Source of the DNA: an uncultured Desulfobulbaceae bacterium
GTDB lineage: Bacteria; Desulfobacterota; Desulfobulbia; Desulfobulbales; Desulfocapsaceae
Direction of reading: 5' to 3'
NCBI GenBank assembly: GCA_947311315.1
Contig: CAMZKN010000060.1
Location: forward strand, 1-42,121
DNA: 42,121 nt
In this document: positions 9,067-42,110 of the stretch, piece by piece
How the letters are laid out: each line of letters starts with the position of its first letter
Position numbering within the stretch: position 1 is the first letter of the stretch
Notes under the pieces: generated by a model
Databases searched by the model: none
What the model was told of the DNA's origin: nothing
What the model saw: only the letters and a program-made list of their open reading frames with translations
Position numbers and translations under genes: made by a program

Positions 9067-9852
9067 TCAAGTTTTACCGCACCAGATTTTCAATGCAACC
9101 TCTACCGACCGGCGCATTTCATCTGAAAAGGCGGCTCCGGTTTTTCGCAGGTAAGTATGCTGGCCAAAATTTGTACTGTTTTTGAGATAATTTTTTTTCC
9201 TGCAAACAAACTGATCGTGCCCACTCCACATCTCTGAAAATTCCTCATCCGTAAATCGTCTGTACGAATTTTCAAAACAGACATATTTTTTATCCAGACG
9301 CGGACTATAAACCTTCCTTGTATCATTTTCTTTGTGATGGCCGAAACAGACCATAATCGTAGGAAAAACGTAGGCAGGTAATGCAAACATCTCTCTATGA
9401 ATCTCTATATTTTCGATTATATCACCGATATAGCATGATCCTATCCCCAAAGATTCGGCTGCAATCACAGCATTTTGTGCCGCAATAAGAGCGTCACAAT
9501 TTGCAAGTAGCAGATCCGACTCTGCCGGCTGTACAAATTCCACTCCATTTTCCCTGCACAATCCGTCCACTTCGCTGTATTCGTAATAATCATACCATCG
9601 CTGAAAATCGGCCATAAAGAGCAATACCAACGGTGCCTTTGCAATAAATGGTTGCTTGTCACAGGTTGTAACCAGACGCTTCTTTTTTTCCGGATCGGAC
9701 ACCTCCAGAATAGAGTAGAGCATCATATTGCCAGCGGTTGGCGCGCGTATAGCACTGTTTATGATCTGTTCTTTTTCTTCGTCCGTGACAGGTTTGTCTG
9801 CGTAGCTCCGCAATGAACATCTTCCTGCAAGAAGCGACAAAGTCTCATTCAT
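9067..9852 (-). CDS. Nitroreductase-family flavoprotein
   Basis: 261 residues from ATG 9852, chosen because AGGAGA lies six bases upstream; an in-frame ATG at 9885 lacks such a site. The N-terminus (RCSLRSYADKPVTDEE, then APTAGN) is the FMN-binding signature of the nitroreductase fold, and a later ESLGIGSCYIGDI segment matches the family's conserved Gly-rich helix. Members use FMN and NAD(P)H to reduce nitro compounds, quinones or other electron acceptors in the cytosol; the substrate cannot be read from sequence. The C-terminal 70 residues are basic and less family-like. It is divergent from the FmdE-like gene across a 119-base gap, so the two may share a control region. Confidence 0.85.
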   Translation of the reverse strand: MNETLSLLAGRCSLRSYADKPVTDEEKEQIINSAIRAPTAGNMMLYSILEVSDPEKKKRLVTTCDKQPFIAKAPLVLLFMADFQRWYDYYEYSEVDGLCRENGVEFVQPAESDLLLANCDALIAAQNAVIAAESLGIGSCYIGDIIENIEIHREMFALPAYVFPTIMVCFGHHKENDTRKVYSPRLDKKYVCFENSYRRFTDEEFSEMWSGHDQFVCRKKNYLKNSTNFGQHTYLRKTGAAFSDEMRRSVEVALKIWCGKT

Positions 9853-9971
9853 CGATACTCTCCTGTTATAAAAGAATTCGGCCATCCTTTGTGTGGATTT
9901 GCTGGCAAAAAGTGTTTACTTTATCTTTTCGGACACCAATTTTCAACTCATCACTTCACTTGGAGAAAACA

Positions 9972-10574
9972 ATGAATGTTCCTGAATCAATTCGCAATGA
10001 AAAAGATTTCCAGGAATGCGTCACGTTTCATGGTCATACCTGTATGGGTGTAACCATAGGATATCTCGCAGCAAAGCTTGCAATGAAGCTTCTGGAGCAC
10101 AAACGATCAATCGACGAAGAACTTATCACAATTGTTGAAAATGATGCATGCTGCTGTGATGCCATCCAGGTTCTAACGGGCTGCACATTCGGTAAAGGAA
10201 ATTTCTTTTTTAAAGATTACGGCAAGATGGCCTTTACCTTTGGCAATCGAAGTAATGGGAAAGCCATTCGTCTTCTTCTAAAGCCCGAAGTCTTTGCTGT
10301 ACCGGAACAGGAACAAAAACTCCTCGAACTGATTCGCTCGGGCAAAGCTTCCCCGGAAGATATTAAAAAATATGAAACGATGACCGAGACCAGAGAAACA
10401 GATCTGTTTTCCGGTGGGCCGGAGGCTTTTTTCGACGTCCAGGACATCGAGATGACGCTGCCACCAACCGCCACCAGAGCACCTTCAACGCCTTGCGTCA
10501 TATGCGGTGAAATGGTTCTGCAAACCAAACTCAAAGAAGTAAACGGCCAGATGATTTGTAAAAGCTGCCAGTAA
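9972..10574 (+). CDS. FmdE-family protein with C-terminal zinc ribbon
   Basis: 200 residues from ATG 9972, preceded by GGAG. A longer frame to 9813 runs into the divergent neighbour and is not credible. The core holds FHGHTCMGVTIGY and NDACCCDAIQVLTGCTFGKG, the conserved His/Cys residues of the FmdE domain first named in formylmethanofuran dehydrogenase operons of methanogens. The last 30 residues carry CVICGE and CKSC, a four-cysteine zinc ribbon. Stand-alone FmdE proteins are frequent in sulfate reducers and other anaerobes and often lie near molybdopterin or metal genes, but their activity is not established. No formylmethanofuran dehydrogenase subunits occur here, so the role is open: metal binding or redox-cofactor handling is an inference. 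Confidence 0.87.
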   Translation: MNVPESIRNEKDFQECVTFHGHTCMGVTIGYLAAKLAMKLLEHKRSIDEELITIVENDACCCDAIQVLTGCTFGKGNFFFKDYGKMAFTFGNRSNGKAIRLLLKPEVFAVPEQEQKLLELIRSGKASPEDIKKYETMTETRETDLFSGGPEAFFDVQDIEMTLPPTATRAPSTPCVICGEMVLQTKLKEVNGQMICKSCQ

Positions 10575-10575
10575 G

Positions 10576-10612
10576 TTGACACCTTGTCACGCATGTAGTA
10601 TTGTTTCTACAT
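10576..10612 (+). promoter_or_regulatory. Promoter and operator of the toxin-antitoxin module
   Basis: TTGACA (10576-10581), a 17-base spacer, then TATTGT (10599-10604): a near-consensus promoter 30 bases upstream of the antitoxin start. A perfect inverted repeat, ATGTAG (10593-10598) and CTACAT (10607-10612) with an eight-base centre, covers the -10 element. Phd-type antitoxins repress their own promoters through such palindromes, so this is the probable autoregulatory operator. The -35 element starts two bases after the FmdE-like stop. Confidence 0.7.
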
Positions 10613-10633
10613 AGTTAAGCTAGGGAGAATCAT

Positions 10634-10891
10634 ATGACTATGACAACAATTACCAGTCGCACATTTAATCAGGATATTAGCAAAGCAAAAAGAAATGCCG
10701 CGCATGGTCCTGTTATTATAACAGATAGAGGGCGACCCGCTCACGTTTTGCTCACCATTGAACAGTATCAAAAAATTACCGGAAAAGAGAAGTCCATCCT
10801 TGATCTTCTGGCTATGCCGCATCTTGCCGAAGTTGATTTAGACCCACCCATCATAGATGATACATTTTTCATACCTGCGGATTTGTCTTAA
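10634..10891 (+). CDS. Phd/YefM-family antitoxin
   Basis: 85 residues. The N-terminal part (TITSRTFNQDISKAKRNA, then GPVIITDRGRPAHVLLT) is the DNA-binding dimerisation fold of Phd/YefM antitoxins. The C-terminal 30 residues, rich in Asp and Pro, would wrap the toxin. The start ATG 10634 follows GGGAGA; a second ATG lies two codons later. The stop shares a base with the toxin start (TAATG), the coupling typical of type II modules. It probably neutralises the PIN nuclease and represses the operon through the palindrome at 10593-10612. Confidence 0.9.
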   Translation: MTMTTITSRTFNQDISKAKRNAAHGPVIITDRGRPAHVLLTIEQYQKITGKEKSILDLLAMPHLAEVDLDPPIIDDTFFIPADLS

Positions 10892-11331
10892 TGTATGTAC
10901 TCGACACAAATGTTATCTCTGAATTACGTAAGGCTAAAACGGGCAAGTTGGACGGTAATGTAAAAAAATGGGCCGAAAGTGTTCCCCCGTCATCTCTATT
11001 TTTATCGTCAATAACGATTTTGGAATTAGAACTCGGCATATTACTCAAAGAAAGAAAAGATATTCAACAGGGGCAACTTCTTCGAACATGGCTGAACCAG
11101 CATGTTTTACCAACGTTTCTCAATCAGATTTTAGATATCGACACAGCCGTGGCCCAATGTTGTGCAGCACTACATGTACCGAACCCTCGTCCCCAACGTG
11201 ATGCACTCATTGCCGCAACAGCAATTGTGCATAGCATGACACTTGTGACACGCAATATTTCAGATTTTACATCCACGGGCGTAACGTTACTTAACCCGTG
11301 GGAAAATCCTTGTGATAAAAAAATAACCTGA
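10891..11331 (+). CDS. PIN-domain toxin ribonuclease (VapC/FitB-like)
   Basis: 146 residues. It starts MYVLDTNVISELRK, the first acidic residue of the PIN active site (D5) in the FitB/VapC style. Further conserved acids appear in ITILELELGI, in PQRDALIAATA and in NISDF. PIN toxins are Mg2+-dependent nucleases that cut tRNA, rRNA or mRNA when freed from the antitoxin. The length is normal and all motif residues are present, so it is likely active. It is cotranscribed with the Phd-type antitoxin. Antitoxin type and PIN type are mixed freely in such modules, so a vapC symbol is not assigned. Confidence 0.9.
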   Translation: MYVLDTNVISELRKAKTGKLDGNVKKWAESVPPSSLFLSSITILELELGILLKERKDIQQGQLLRTWLNQHVLPTFLNQILDIDTAVAQCCAALHVPNPRPQRDALIAATAIVHSMTLVTRNISDFTSTGVTLLNPWENPCDKKIT

Positions 11332-11344
11332 TTGCCCGGTTTTT

Positions 11345-12496
11345 CTACAGATCTCGAGGTTTATTGCGGGCTTTAAATGTTATGCGATGATAGGCCTTGG
11401 TCGTGACCTTTTGTGTAAGGCTGCGAATCCCGGCAATGGGGTTTTTTATTCGCATAGTCGAGCGGTTGCGAATCACCTTGCCCATGGTCTCTGTTCTGAT
11501 TTTTCCGTCATTCTCATTGATTACGCTACATAGAATAGCAAAGAGGTTCTGCTCTTCAAGCACCCGACGACGCGCCTCAATAATATAGGGCAGCCGGTCT
11601 TCATACTCATCGTTTGCCAAATGGCTGTTAATGATCTCTTTTGCCCGTTTAAAATCGTTAATATCAATGGGGATAAAACTCTCTTTAGGGAAATAATCGG
11701 CAGCGTTTGGCGCTCCGTGATAAAATGGCAGGGTATAACCAAGAAATGCGTCGGGCAGTTTTTCCGTCAGATGATGATCGTAGACATGATTTTCCACAGC
11801 TATATGATAACGGTACGGATCAAGTGCCTCCGCTTTATCGAGCATGGGGTTCACTCCATGACCAAATATATCCAGTTCCGGCAGATCATCTTTTAACCGC
11901 CAGGTAAAATCAACACGGGTTGAATGCAGGGTCACGTTGCCGGTTCTCTTGGAACAGACGGTGGAGATCATCTTCGTTTTAACAGGAGGCGGAGTTGCCA
12001 TCATCTGATCCCAGGTGATAAACTCTCCCTCACCAAAAGGCAAGCCATAGTGCCAGATCAAGCCGGGATGATGAAAAATGACATGGGGATGTTTCATTGC
12101 CCACGGTTCCTGAAACGTCAGGATATGACCAAACTGACGCAGGTAGTCGGTACCGAAAACAGTTATAGTTGAAGGCTCTCCTGTAAGAAGTATTGTTCGT
12201 TCACGAGGGCATGGTAGTTTTTCTTCGGTGAAAAAACTCTCACCGGTTGGCAGATCCTGATAAACCACCAGCCAGTCATACTCATTGCAATCCACATCAA
12301 ATTCAAAAAGACAGTTGTCCCACTGGGGAAAAGACTTTGGAAACTGGCGCAGAAAACCGGCAATCGAGTGTCCCTTTTTCAGCCCGCGGTGCATAAATTT
12401 TACTTTAAATGTATGTTCCTGCGGCGGAAGAGATTCGAGATCCTTCTCCTGGATTAAACCTTCACTGTTGGTAAATGAAAAAAATTCTTTTGACAA
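11345..12496 (-). CDS. GT10-family (alpha-1,3-fucosyltransferase-like) glycosyltransferase
   Basis: 383 residues from TTG 12496, backed by GAGGA five bases upstream. The C-terminal half holds RYHIAVENHVYDHHLTEKLP followed by DAFLGYTLPFYHGAPNAADYFP. This matches the donor-binding region of family 10 fucosyltransferases (ENS...YITEKLWNAF..GTVPVV.G.P). These transfer fucose, or a related sugar, from GDP to a cell-surface glycan. No signal peptide or membrane segment is evident, and a basic tail may hold it at the membrane. It stands alone, convergent with the PIN toxin and without GDP-fucose synthesis genes nearby, which suggests an isolated glycan-decorating gene. The sugar donor is unproven. 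Confidence 0.8.
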   Translation of the reverse strand: MSKEFFSFTNSEGLIQEKDLESLPPQEHTFKVKFMHRGLKKGHSIAGFLRQFPKSFPQWDNCLFEFDVDCNEYDWLVVYQDLPTGESFFTEEKLPCPRERTILLTGEPSTITVFGTDYLRQFGHILTFQEPWAMKHPHVIFHHPGLIWHYGLPFGEGEFITWDQMMATPPPVKTKMISTVCSKRTGNVTLHSTRVDFTWRLKDDLPELDIFGHGVNPMLDKAEALDPYRYHIAVENHVYDHHLTEKLPDAFLGYTLPFYHGAPNAADYFPKESFIPIDINDFKRAKEIINSHLANDEYEDRLPYIIEARRRVLEEQNLFAILCSVINENDGKIRTETMGKVIRNRSTMRIKNPIAGIRSLTQKVTTKAYHRITFKARNKPRDL

Positions 12497-38562: not shown

Positions 38563-38759
38563 TGAGCCCTCAAAAGTAGTTTTATCTTGTCTTTGCCGTT
38601 ATTGTGGTAAACGAGGGTGTGCCCGGAGGCGAATTTATCGCCATGGTATTTCTGCTAATCCACTGGCTAAATTGTTAGGGGAAAAAGAAGGTCCGGGAAA
38701 AAATAATGGTAGCCCCATGTGAGCAATTACATTTCAAGTGGTTGGAATAGGATGGCTCT
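38563..38759. other. Intergenic region with a solo repeat end
   Basis: About 200 bases. A short rightward frame (38522-38722) ends in a Cys- and Arg-rich stretch (CRYCGKRGCARRRIYRHG) that might be a decayed transposase-like fragment, but support is weak. At 38718-38730 the sequence TGTGAGCAATTAC matches the right end of the palindrome at 42003-42110 with one mismatch. No matching left end is visible. Confidence 0.45.
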
Positions 38760-39431
38760 CTACATGCGAAACCATTGCCAGCCAAAGAGTACAGACAGTG
38801 TCACCGTATATACGACAAGGACGTAATACCAGTGACCGGCAAACTTGGGCGTTTTAATAGGCGCCACATTCAACGCCGCCAGCACCATAAGCAAGATATA
38901 AATAATAATAGAAAAGAGAGTATGACTGAATAATCCATTAAACAGAAAAACAAAGGCCAAAATGAGAACGTTGTTGTCCAGGGCCAATCCCATATAGGTT
39001 GATTTATCCACCAGGCCAAAAACGTTAAAATAACTTAAACGTATCACACCTGTAGCGACGATGATAAAAGCGCCGGGAATGTACCAGGGGCTGAAATGGC
39101 CATAACTTAAAAGAACAACTGCCGGACAGATTCCAAAACTGACAATATCAATCAGCGAGTCGAGTTGGGCCCCGAAAAGTCCCTGCTCTTCGGTTCGTCC
39201 TTTCATACGCCTTGCAATAATACCGTCACTCCAATCAAAAAAGACAGCCCAGACAAGACCTATCATTGCAGCGTGAAACATACCGACAGCTGCAAAATAT
39301 ATGGCCAGAACTGCACAAAAAAGACCAACCAGAGAGCAGATATTTGGTAAATCTCCGGCATATGACAGTATTGTCTTTTGCGACACCGGCCTTTGCGTAT
39401 CGTGGTCAGCGGAACTTGATGGGGATTGCAT
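38760..39431 (-). CDS. CDP-alcohol phosphatidyltransferase
   Basis: 223 residues, ATG behind GGAG and two bases after the aminotransferase-like stop. It has six or so membrane segments. The signature is complete and reads DWSDGIIARR, a spacer, then GAQLDSLID, i.e. D-x2-D-G-x2-A-R-x12-G-x3-D-x3-D. Enzymes of this family move a phospho-alcohol between CDP and a hydroxyl acceptor, as in phosphatidylserine or CDP-choline routes. As the last gene of a three-gene operon with a cytidylyltransferase-like and a PLP enzyme, it probably transfers a CDP-activated amino-alcohol phosphate to diacylglycerol. A PssA-type reaction is the alternative. Confidence 0.88.
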   Translation of the reverse strand: MQSPSSSADHDTQRPVSQKTILSYAGDLPNICSLVGLFCAVLAIYFAAVGMFHAAMIGLVWAVFFDWSDGIIARRMKGRTEEQGLFGAQLDSLIDIVSFGICPAVVLLSYGHFSPWYIPGAFIIVATGVIRLSYFNVFGLVDKSTYMGLALDNNVLILAFVFLFNGLFSHTLFSIIIYILLMVLAALNVAPIKTPKFAGHWYYVLVVYTVTLSVLFGWQWFRM

Positions 39432-39434
39432 GAC

Positions 39435-40532
39435 TCACTCCGTTCCAAGAATATTGCGTAATGCTTCAATCAACCGCATGTTTTCAGGCGGGGTACGGCT
39501 GGCTATGCGGAGATAACGATCAGATTCCGGCATCGTTTTGCCCTGGCAATGCTTTATATATATTTTGTGATTAACAAACAGTCTTTCGGTTACTTCCGGC
39601 CCCGACAAATTGTGATCAGGCACTCGGCAGAAAATAAAATTGGCATCAGGTTGATAAACAATCATTCCCGGAATCAACTGGAGTTGCCGATATAATTGAT
39701 CGCGATCCGCTTTTACAATACTACAACTTTGCTGAAATTCTTTCCTGTACTGCGGAGCAAGGCGCAGAAATTCTTCCGCAAACCCATTAATATTCCAGAT
39801 ATGCAACCCCTGCCGGACGTTATCTAAAAAATCCGCATTCGCCGTGAGCATATAACCAATCCGAATACCACAGATACCGTATGCCTTACTCATGCTCTTG
39901 AAAATTACCAGATTCGGATACTTTTCAATTTCATTCTCAAGAGTTTCCAGTGCGCCCATTCGTGCAAAATCAATAAACGATTCATCGACGATCAGTATAC
40001 AGTCATGAAGAGCCAATCTTGCAGTCAAACGAAGAAGTTGATCTTTTGGAACCAGTAATGAGGTAGGATTATTCGGAGTTACCACCACTGCCAAACGTGC
40101 CTTACAACGAATAGCCTCCTCTGCAAACTTATCCACATCCAGATGAAAGGAGGGTGGGGCAATGGTAAACACGGTAACATTACCGGTCGGTGCTGCATTG
40201 CCATACTCATTAAATGATGGGACAGGAACGATCAGTTTACGATCCATCCCGGCAATAATTTTAATAAGCTCTGCCGCCCCATTGCTCACAACAATTCGCT
40301 CAGGCGGATGGCCAATCAAATCACTCACCAGACAGGCCAGATCCTGCTGGGCAATTGGGTAATTTAATACCAGCTGATGAATGTGTCTGCCAATGTGGGT
40401 AAAAAAATCCTCAGGTGGAAAATAGAGGTTATAAAGATAATTATGATCTGTGAAATCATGCCGCCAAAAACCGCCATGCTGGCTGGAGATATGTTCGTAA
40501 TGTTCCTTAGGCGTAACTTGTGTCTTTATCAT
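39435..40532 (-). CDS. HisC/CobD-like PLP enzyme (aminotransferase or decarboxylase)
   Basis: 365 residues, fold-type I. The PLP lysine is in IFKSMSKAYGICGIRIGY near residue 215. Other conserved parts are VSNGAAELIKIIAG, VTPNNPTSLLVPK and VDESFIDFA. The N-terminal QHGG segment recalls CobD, the threonine-phosphate decarboxylase, and histidinol-phosphate aminotransferases. It lies between a cytidylyltransferase-like gene (six bases upstream) and a CDP-alcohol phosphatidyltransferase gene. A phosphoserine- or threonine-phosphate decarboxylase that makes phosphoethanolamine or phosphoaminopropanol is the most attractive function, but transamination cannot be excluded from sequence. Confidence 0.85.
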   Translation of the reverse strand: MIKTQVTPKEHYEHISSQHGGFWRHDFTDHNYLYNLYFPPEDFFTHIGRHIHQLVLNYPIAQQDLACLVSDLIGHPPERIVVSNGAAELIKIIAGMDRKLIVPVPSFNEYGNAAPTGNVTVFTIAPPSFHLDVDKFAEEAIRCKARLAVVVTPNNPTSLLVPKDQLLRLTARLALHDCILIVDESFIDFARMGALETLENEIEKYPNLVIFKSMSKAYGICGIRIGYMLTANADFLDNVRQGLHIWNINGFAEEFLRLAPQYRKEFQQSCSIVKADRDQLYRQLQLIPGMIVYQPDANFIFCRVPDHNLSGPEVTERLFVNHKIYIKHCQGKTMPESDRYLRIASRTPPENMRLIEALRNILGTE

Positions 40533-40538
40533 AATAGT

Positions 40539-41414
40539 TTACTGCAGCATCTTCGAGGCCGGTGCCACTGATTTGGATATCTTTATATCTGCAGAGCAGC
40601 CTATTTTTATCGATGTATTAGATTGCAGATCAACTGAAAAGGCAGGTGAATGAGCATAGCGATTGCATACAAGTTCCGCTGCTCGCAGATCAGCTATCGT
40701 ATCAATCTCATACCAGCTACCGGAACCAAAGAAAATTGGTGTCAACGAGAGACAGCCCTCGTTGACCAGATCTGCAAAAACAGTCTCGTAGTAGCCATCC
40801 ACCATATTATTTGAAATATGATGATCCAATCGTTCCCGTACCAGCTGCCAGGTAAGAGAAGACAGGCTGTAAATATTGACTGTTTTAAAATGATTCTTGT
40901 CAGGTCTCTGGGCACCGCAATGAAATGCGTCAACCTCCATGTGTTCGTTAACTGTCACAGTGGTACCATCCATCCACGGCTCTACCTTTGCAACTGCGAT
41001 TCGATCAGGATAGAGCATCTCTGCCAACATTTCCGTCTGAAAAACGAGATCACTTTCAATTAGCAGAAACGGTTCATCTATCATTTCGCGGGCAAGCCAC
41101 AGGGAGTAGATATTGTTTGTTGTTTTGTATAAAGGGCTTATAATATACGTAATTTCCATTTTCCCTGCTCTAACACCCAGATAATCACGAATACAATCAG
41201 CCTGATGACCAATAACCACTACAAGACGGTTAAAATTATGCTTTTGAAGTGAACTAATCAACCTCTCCAGAATTGATATTTCATTAACCGAAACAAGGCA
41301 TTTAGGAGTCATATCCGTCAAAGGCGCAAGGCGACTACCGGTACCGGCAGCCAATAATAGAGCTGTCCTGACTGGTTCATCCACAAAATCAGCATACATA
41401 GTCCTCTTTTTCAT
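40539..41414 (-). CDS. LicC/PntC-like cytidylyltransferase (sugar-nucleotidyltransferase fold)
   Basis: 291 residues from ATG 41414, supported by GGGAGG upstream; a longer frame to 41465 lacks a site. It shows the NTP-transferase core LLLAAGTGSRLAPLTDMTPK, KCLVSVNEISILER, the TTNNIYSLWLA motif typical of phosphocholine and aminoethylphosphonate cytidylyltransferases, LLIESDLVF with the metal-binding Asp, and WYEIDTIADLRAAE. The likely reaction is CTP plus an aminoalcohol phosphate or phosphonate to give a CDP/CMP-linked product. It is first in the leftward operon with the PLP enzyme and the CDP-alcohol phosphatidyltransferase. The exact substrate is not fixed by sequence. Confidence 0.8.
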   Translation of the reverse strand: MKKRTMYADFVDEPVRTALLLAAGTGSRLAPLTDMTPKCLVSVNEISILERLISSLQKHNFNRLVVVIGHQADCIRDYLGVRAGKMEITYIISPLYKTTNNIYSLWLAREMIDEPFLLIESDLVFQTEMLAEMLYPDRIAVAKVEPWMDGTTVTVNEHMEVDAFHCGAQRPDKNHFKTVNIYSLSSLTWQLVRERLDHHISNNMVDGYYETVFADLVNEGCLSLTPIFFGSGSWYEIDTIADLRAAELVCNRYAHSPAFSVDLQSNTSIKIGCSADIKISKSVAPASKMLQ

Positions 41415-42002
41415 ATTTTCAATCCTCCCGAATTGTAACCGAACCATGGCAATGACCGTGATCAAACAACACGGTACAACGCTGGTAGTGAGATGTTACT
41501 TGATTATCTGCCGATGAAAAAAGATGAGGGGCAAAAACTGATGGGTAGAACCAGTACAAAAAGTACGTGGGGCAAGGCGTTCAATTATCAGAAAATCGAA
41601 CACCCTATCGGACTAATTAAACAGAGACATTACCACGAACATCCATTTAAGTCAACGTATTTCCAATTATTCCAATATTTTGTGACTTTAACAAGAAGCT
41701 AAGTCACTAGATGATGACATAAAAATCCAGATCTCCTGCATGACGCCATGTAACGTCAAAGTCTTTTTTTACAGACTCAGACAGCGAGGTATGTTTGTCA
41801 GGCAGTATGCTCTCAAACCGTCCTATAATCATTTTTCAGGGGAGATGACGTGTATGGAGAGGAGGGGAAGGCGGGCCATTGTTTTCTCTACTCTATCTTG
41901 AAAAAGGTAATGCATCCGTATAATCTATCTCATTTAATTTTATCATAGATGACCCTATTTACCTTATCGCTTCATCTATGGCGATCCTGATTAATTTTTG
42001 AG
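41415..42002. other. Intergenic region at the right end
   Basis: Close to 590 bases. It holds the promoter region of the leftward lipid operon. One 69-codon rightward frame (41493-41702) has no ribosome site and no recognisable content and is not called as a gene. Nothing else was seen before the palindrome at 42003. Confidence 0.5.
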
Positions 42003-42110
42003 GTAACTGCTCACAGGCTCCCCATCTTCGCACGGTCACATTTGCCGGTATAGAGGGGCTATAACGGGCAAATGTGCCTGCACGAATATGGAGCACCTGT
42101 GAGCAGTTAC
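42003..42110. repeat. 108-base palindromic MITE/REP-like element
   Basis: Ends are perfect 15-base inverted repeats: GTAACTGCTCACAGG (42003-42017) and CCTGTGAGCAGTTAC (42096-42110). Inward, an imperfect stem continues (ccat-ttcg paired with cgaa-atgg), then a perfect CACATTTGCC / GGCAAATGTG stem, then TATAG/CTATA around a small central loop. Almost the whole element can fold into one hairpin. It encodes nothing. The same end motif recurs at 21660-21782 and 38718-38730. Confidence 0.75.

Follow-up and report, generated by a model that had tools for sequence, protein, structure and literature searches.

A conserved three-gene operon in an uncultured Desulfobulbaceae bacterium and its possible role in CDP-activation and transfer of an amino-phosphate

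Results and discussion

Three tightly spaced genes on the minus strand

The window, i.e. the whole stretch of 42,121 nucleotides of DNA from an uncultured Desulfobulbaceae bacterium that was analysed here, contains a run of three genes on the minus strand. The genes and the signal preceding them are as follows:

41424-41429, minus strand: GGGAGG ribosome-binding site, preceding the ATG at 41414 and read off the sequence directly
40539-41414, minus strand: LicC/PntC-like cytidylyltransferase (NTP), first gene of the operon, 291 aa, Pfam NTP_transferase (3.7e-10)
39435-40532, minus strand: CobD-like PLP enzyme, 365 aa, Pfam Aminotran_1_2 (1.5e-34)
38760-39431, minus strand: CDP-alcohol phosphotransferase (CAPT) of the PssA fold, 223 aa, Pfam CDP-OH_P_transf (3.5e-14)

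Only 6 bp separate the cytidylyltransferase gene from the PLP gene, and 3 bp the latter from the CDP-alcohol transferase gene. The leftward three-gene operon proposed in the first-pass annotation was found complete, and the Pfam matches together with the LicC/PntC relatives of NTP bore out the enzyme classes assigned there. NTP starts at ATG 41414 behind the GGGAGG site, which was graded strong; the listed open reading frame offers a further upstream TTG at 41465. The genes to the left of the operon, encoding a CbiMQO-type transporter, a YchF-type GTPase and a glycosyltransferase, are in the opposite orientation and look unrelated to it.

The trio recurs in the same order in several phyla

A conservation scan with CAPT as the query and one genome per species yielded 15 loci. 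The complete trio occurs in identical order in 12 operons including that of the window (the others being L004-L008, L010, L013, L016, L017, L030 and L031), with 51-82% identity for CAPT and the PLP enzyme, and this recurrence indicates that the operon is more than a chance arrangement. According to the record titles, the hosts belong to several phyla, range from Desulfobulbales to Kiritimatiellota and include Desulforhopalus, Desulfopila, Desulfogranum marinum and Pontiella sulfatireligans. Culturable hosts among them are Desulfopila sp. IMCC35008, Desulfogranum marinum DSM 2058 and Pontiella sulfatireligans. The trio is also present in MAGs putatively assigned, by title only, to an actinomycete and an archaeon. 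The module is rare, being found in 3 of the 395 genomes sampled in the phylum and in 6 of the 142 sampled around a Solemya symbiont, a distribution that fits horizontal transfer, and no viral carriage of it was confirmed. Four gammaproteobacterial loci (L009, L011, L012 and L015) hold NTP and CAPT as a pair without the PLP gene. No PLP orthologue was found among the hits elsewhere in these four genomes, the candidates for a remote copy being HisC- or CobD-like with approximately 25% identity.

The cytidylyltransferase carries PntC-type glutamates

The best solved relatives of NTP were LicC (1JYK, 3e-16) and PntC (6PD1, 1.5e-9), and the protein carries the GxG(T/S)Rx4-8PK signature of the LicC/PntC cytidylyltransferases, GTGSRLAPLTDMTPK. 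Two of its glutamates, E120 and E210, are invariant in the alignment and line up with Glu104 and Glu196 of PntC (Tde). In PntC, two glutamates are placed near the primary amine of AEP, where LicC has aspartates (PMC6697681). Since LicC is shifted by one position at the first of these sites in the HMM alignment, the comparison was based directly on PntC. In the homologues L110 and L112, the NTP and PLP domains are fused, the N-terminal part matching NTP, which suggests that the activation and PLP steps belong together. These features support a predicted role of NTP in the CTP activation of a primary-amine phosphate. Choline as the head group was disfavoured by the PntC-type glutamates, and the window genome gave no hit to the choline-kinase family (PF01633).

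The PLP enzyme is related to CobD

The PLP enzyme was best matched by the CobD model TIGR01140 (7.2e-55, 186.4 bits, below the curated cut-off of 290.55 bits), the hisC model scoring 144 bits. It has the HGG motif at residues 19-21 and the PLP lysine at K216. HGG was present in all 12 operon PLP enzymes and in nine out of nine CobDs with an intact N-terminus, a tenth CobD being truncated by the end of its contig. None of 22 other aminotransferases had the motif. Thus, from the label ‘CobD/HisC-like’ given earlier, the CobD part is upheld by model score, motif and tree, and the HisC part was dropped. The enzyme nevertheless differs from CobD in several respects. Arg323 of CobD is replaced by lysine (K327), and the substrate may therefore be a different one; the operon enzymes are only 24-30% identical to the CobDs of the same genomes; and the gene of the window lies outside any cobamide cluster, whereas the CobD of this genome, fused to a CobQ-type domain, is located with cobamide genes on another contig. 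As the genome encodes its own CobD and also a HisC, the PLP enzyme of the operon is neither of the two.

Its best solved relative was 6OUX (2.7e-35; 1.7e-50 by profile), which, from the deposited name, we take to be SMUL_1544, an enzyme reportedly active on phosphoserine. SMUL_1544 is a CobD homologue proposed to be the source of ethanolamine phosphate (PMC4585668), and it governs norcobamide synthesis according to a title cited in PMC6759758. In the phylogenetic tree, 6OUX and the operon enzymes formed one clade, sister to CobD, with a support of 100/99 for a grouping that joins long branches; the AU test for a placement of 6OUX with CobD instead was borderline (p 0.049), and in a larger tree 6OUX paired weakly with a Fusobacterium sequence. 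Norcobamide supply was rejected as the main role of the operon, since CobD lies with the cobamide genes elsewhere and NTP and CAPT have no known place in that process. The structure predicted for the PLP enzyme with AlphaFold was too weak for use (pLDDT 71).

Based on motif, model score and clade, decarboxylation is the likely chemistry of this enzyme, and its substrate could be that of CobD. Decarboxylation of phosphothreonine would then lead, via CDP-aminopropanol, to an aminopropanol-containing phospholipid, in keeping with the CobD family membership and the preserved HGG motif and PLP lysine. However, the operon enzymes cluster with the proposed supplier of ethanolamine phosphate and apart from CobD, a separate CobD is encoded in the genome, a kinase would be required for the supply of phosphothreonine, and a partner enzyme of CAPT in Colwellia resembles ECT (see below), all of which make an aminopropanol head group rather improbable. 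The PLP enzyme might alternatively be a transaminase that converts DHAP to serinol phosphate or yields a comparable amino-alcohol phosphate, with phosphatidylserinol or another new head group as the outcome. It does share the fold type I family with HisC, as reflected in the 144 bits obtained with the hisC model, and CAPT has lost an arginine that helps in serine binding in phosphatidylserine synthase, but both the HGG motif and the clade are those of CobD-type decarboxylases, unlike HisC, and we consider a transaminase distinctly improbable.

CAPT differs from phosphatidylserine synthases and has exchangeable partners

CAPT possesses the CDP-alcohol phosphotransferase motif DxxDGxxAR...GxxxDxxxD, DWSDGIIARRMKGRTEEQGLFGAQLDSLID, in the form DWSDGIIAR-x12-GAQLDSLID, as well as RLSYF, and its clade is separated from PssA and the double-CAP proteins with a support of 100/100. 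The predicted model (pLDDT 82) gave a structural Z of 20.2 to MjPSS (7B1K), compared with approximately 12.5 to AF2299, 11.3 to DIPPS (4MND) and 10.0 to Xenopus CHPT1. With the phosphatidylserine/archaetidylserine synthases PssA and MjPSS it shares the fold, the metal and CDP residues and the equivalents of R101 and F105, the conserved MjPSS positions being D41, D44, R49, D62, S63, D66, R101 and F105. In contrast, the equivalent of MjPSS R104 is Tyr (Y134) in the CAPT of the window and aromatic (Tyr/Trp) in 15 of 15 aligned members. The corresponding R189 of Cho1 affects the Km for serine (PMC8727905). RLSYF also departs from the serine motif RLARF, which is kept in eight PssA proteins from the same genomes, and the loop between AR and G, with an invariant Arg, comprises 12 residues in the CAPT clade instead of eight. 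CAPT could still be an ordinary CDP-DAG-dependent phosphatidylserine synthase, the other two genes serving something else, as its nearest fold is MjPSS and D62, S63, D66, F105 and R101 of the latter are retained. The aromatic residue at position 104 across the whole clade, the longer loop, the separation from PssA and the pairing with two unrelated cytidylyltransferase families described below make this very improbable, and support the view that CAPT is no ordinary phosphatidylserine synthase.

The E/H pair of the GExxDHxxD motif activates diacylglycerol in eukaryotic CPT/CEPT (PMC10182977). This motif is absent from CAPT, which has GAQLDSLID at that place, and the transfer to diacylglycerol proposed in the first-pass annotation is weakened to that extent.

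In six gammaproteobacterial loci (L014 and L032-L036), CAPT adjoins an HxGH-type cytidylyltransferase unrelated to the LicC/PntC-like NTP, the CAPT copy of L036 being interrupted by stops. The HxGH partner in a Colwellia MAG (L014) is nearest to human ECT (3ELB, 8.9e-30; 106.7 bits vs 65.5 for GCT), and the genome of this MAG contains a choline/ethanolamine-kinase-like gene. For the partner in L033, the scores for ECT and GCT were nearly equal (57.8 vs 54.9 bits), so that the head group may vary across the family. The chief reason for assuming a small CDP-activated head group, i.e. a small CDP-alcohol, as the donor used by CAPT is that members of one CAPT clade occur beside cytidylyltransferases of two non-homologous families.

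Some plasmid-borne relatives lie close to PEP mutase genes

Homologues of the PLP enzyme with 33-45% identity were found on rhizobial, Agrobacterium, Erwinia, Rahnella and Priestia plasmids, and 7 of 17 such plasmid records have an annotated aepX within 8 kb. The EDKxxxxxNS motif is present in four of the seven aepX loci (L121 and L123-L125), and L108 carries EDSCFPKMNS. Several of these homologues are longer proteins in which the PLP domain forms the C-terminal portion, and the plasmid CAPT homologues have the long loop with Arg plus RLx(Y/F)F. As the rhizobial trios are often located beside a PEP mutase gene, the trio appears to be a generic amino-phosph(on)ate module, and the phosphonolipid alternative had been rightly raised in the earlier annotation. 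The PLP clade of the window is sister to the group holding all seven aepX loci (96/95). The window clade and five loci lacking aepX keep the histidine of HGG, which in each of the seven is Pro, Ser or Val; this correlation is only suggestive, because three independent pairs cannot reach significance.

The statement that no PEP mutase gene accompanies the operon could be extended to the window genome (∼96% complete), in which neither PF13714 (at E 1e-3) nor TIGR02320 (at 1e-5) gave a hit. Likewise, any TIGR02320 hits in operon-carrying genomes stayed below the cut-off, and those examined were devoid of EDKxxxxxNS. In L032, a candidate PEP mutase next to the gammaproteobacterial pair proved to be an isocitrate-lyase-family protein without this motif. 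A phosphonolipid or other phosphonate would arise if the PLP enzyme converted phosphonoalanine to 2-aminoethylphosphonate, which would then be activated and attached, as the aepX-linked homologues of all three genes, the canonical motif in four loci and the PntC-type residues of NTP might suggest. Given the empty searches, along with the retained HGG histidine (three independent contrasts only), this is hardly to be expected in the window organism, where the phosphate version is probably present. The operon resembles Pnt tailoring systems (PntC, e.g. Tde1415 PntC-AEPT) in its LicC-like cytidylyltransferase with two amine-binding glutamates, its PLP partner and the homologous trios within aepX clusters, but differs from them by the CobD-like nature of the PLP enzyme, which is not an AEP transaminase, by the inclusion of a CDP-alcohol transferase and by a genome without PEP mutase.

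A putative route to an ethanolamine-containing product

In our estimate, the probability is about 0.75 that an amino-phosphate is both CDP-activated and transferred by the module. Ethanolamine is the head group we favour, with moderate confidence. L-phosphoserine, an intermediate of serine synthesis, would be decarboxylated by the CobD-like enzyme to ethanolamine phosphate, from which the LicC/PntC-like enzyme, with CTP, would form CDP-ethanolamine, and CAPT, as a membrane enzyme, would then use CDP-ethanolamine as the donor and place phosphoethanolamine on the hydroxyl group of an acceptor in the membrane. The acceptor would most simply be diacylglycerol, giving phosphatidylethanolamine (PE) or a PE-like lipid. 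For the full route through to a lipid we put the chances slightly short of even, the main uncertainty being whether the acceptor is diacylglycerol.

With the substrates, product and acceptor that we infer, the operon would represent a bacterial equivalent to the ethanolamine branch of the Kennedy pathway (ECT/PCYT2, EPT1/CEPT1) on a PssA-type scaffold. Both would proceed by CTP activation followed by a CDP-alcohol phosphotransferase, and in Colwellia an ECT-like enzyme stands in for the LicC-like one beside CAPT. Unlike the Kennedy branch, the operon would obtain ethanolamine phosphate by decarboxylating phosphoserine and not through an ethanolamine kinase; its cytidylyltransferase belongs to the LicC superfamily, and its transferase is a PssA-type protein of 223 residues without GExxDHxxD.

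The route commonly taught for bacterial PE leads from CDP-DAG via phosphatidylserine to PE. In the window genome, an intact-looking psd with its FGS site was found (L038, 2582-3226), together with a double-CAP protein of 445 residues (L037) that has PssA signatures and keeps RLVRF in its C-terminal half. These genes rule out a replacement of the PssA/Psd route and contradict the earlier idea of PE formation ‘without phosphatidylserine’; from the pathway as first outlined, the likely decarboxylation, CTP activation and a CAP enzyme other than an ordinary phosphatidylserine synthase are retained. The operon would thus add to the canonical route, either supplementing PE synthesis in parallel to it or yielding a different product. 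Several points count against the ethanolamine lipid reading: PssA and Psd can already give PE, with no evident need for another route; CAPT, without the CPT/CEPT E/H pair, appears from its model to be structurally nearest to a CDP-DAG-using phosphatidylserine synthase; the PLP enzyme has K327 for R323 and groups with 6OUX on long branches; the PLP gene is missing from four gammaproteobacterial genomes that have NTP and CAPT; and the rhizobial phosphonate clusters, with their transporters and tailoring genes, would fit a small molecule equally well.

In the last case, the acceptor for the amino-phosphate moved by CAPT would be a sugar or a small alcohol, and accessory genes would then modify the amine of the soluble or glycan-linked phosphodiester. 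A precedent for a nucleotidyltransferase plus CAP enzyme yielding a solute is IPCT-DIPPS, in which DIPPS uses CDP-inositol and, as proposed here, a sugar-nucleotidyltransferase-like enzyme feeds a CDP-alcohol to a CAP enzyme; the operon differs from it by its separate genes, by an amino-phosphate in place of inositol phosphate and by the extra decarboxylase. Apart from the CAPT Z of 11.3 to 4MND, the neighbourhoods of the homologues point in this direction: the rhizobial trios adjoin genes for peptide-type ABC transporters, alkaline-phosphatase-family proteins and regulators, L121 and the Colwellia locus L014 have an octopine-dehydrogenase-family gene in the vicinity of CAPT, and an ATP-grasp gene, whose product weakly resembles amino-acid ligases, follows the operon in several desulfobacteria (L004, L006 and L013), is a convergent neighbour in L016, is cut by the contig end in L007 and has decayed in L005. 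Nevertheless, the fold of CAPT is far nearer to the lipid-making MjPSS than to DIPPS, the operon of the window is without transporter and tailoring genes, and the remaining genomes searched, that of the window among them, lack the ATP-grasp gene, so that we regard a phosphodiester of this kind as unlikely here.

CDP activation of the Kennedy and Pnt types is already known, and the operon would be a variant of it. If the ethanolamine lipid reading is true, conversion of phosphoserine to CDP-ethanolamine would constitute a different bacterial entry to aminophospholipids, for which exogenous ethanolamine is not needed. More broadly, and only as a tentative and somewhat doubtful proposal, the genes may represent a portable module built on a new PssA-fold subfamily (AR-x12-G loop, RLxYF), which would attach amino-phosphate or amino-phosphonate head groups via CDP-activation, starting from phosphoserine or phosphonoalanine. 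The module would be common to desulfobacteria, Kiritimatiellota, sulfur-oxidising symbionts and rhizobial plasmids, and its lipid or phosphodiester products would be new ones, whose amine would in some hosts be further modified by enzymes of the ATP-grasp or opine-dehydrogenase type. Partner swaps and PEP-mutase-linked relatives suggest how clusters for phosphate and for phosphonate head groups might be read, and genes annotated as histidinol-phosphate transaminase, phosphocholine cytidylyltransferase and phosphatidylserine synthase would thereby obtain names and testable substrates.

Genes and repeats adjoining the operon

In several desulfobacteria the three-gene operon is followed or adjoined by an ATP-grasp gene, and in one operon-bearing locus (L005) this gene is present in a decayed form. 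Copies in other operon-bearing loci are:

L013, 8662-9933, ATP-grasp gene
L004, 2306-3574, ATP-grasp gene
L006, 8673-9926, ATP-grasp gene
L016, 8618-9859, ATP-grasp gene

A Pfam search with the gene product returned no match, and the gene was not found elsewhere in the 17 genomes searched. Acylation of the head-group amine could be the role of this enzyme.

The operon of the window is accompanied on both sides by repeat sequences:

42003-42110, full palindromic repeat (~108 bp; arms GTAACTGCTCACAGG...CCTGTGAGCAGTTAC), upstream of the operon
38715-38730, single variant repeat arm, just beyond the operon end

Genome-wide, the arms gave 95 matches, as against 0 with the reversed-pattern control, and several contigs start within 130 bp of an arm. 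The repeat looks REP- or MITE-like.

Relatives of the operon genes and their neighbours

The same genome encodes a 445-residue protein with two CDP-alcohol transferase motifs in tandem, a type common to other desulfobacteria (L090-L093), whose C-terminal half is PssA-like, with AE or AM replacing the AR of the family:

L037, 2173-3510, double CDP-alcohol transferase protein

Among plasmid relatives, the fused cytidylyltransferase-PLP enzyme gene of Priestia megaterium pBM700 (L110) is grouped with an additional copy of the DXR gene, a gene of the AAC(3) family and a pair of ATP-grasp genes. This grouping may indicate a cluster for a natural product that targets DXR, with self-resistance included. 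On a second plasmid locus (L108, 4108-4980), a gene annotated as aepX may not encode a true PEP mutase, because its sequence reads EDSCFPKMNS where EDKxxxxxNS is expected.

An octopine/nopaline-dehydrogenase-family gene occurs at two loci:

L121 (plasmid, Rhizobium sp. 007), 11154-12365, after the PLP gene
L014 (Colwellia MAG), 9667-10848, after the cytidylyltransferase gene
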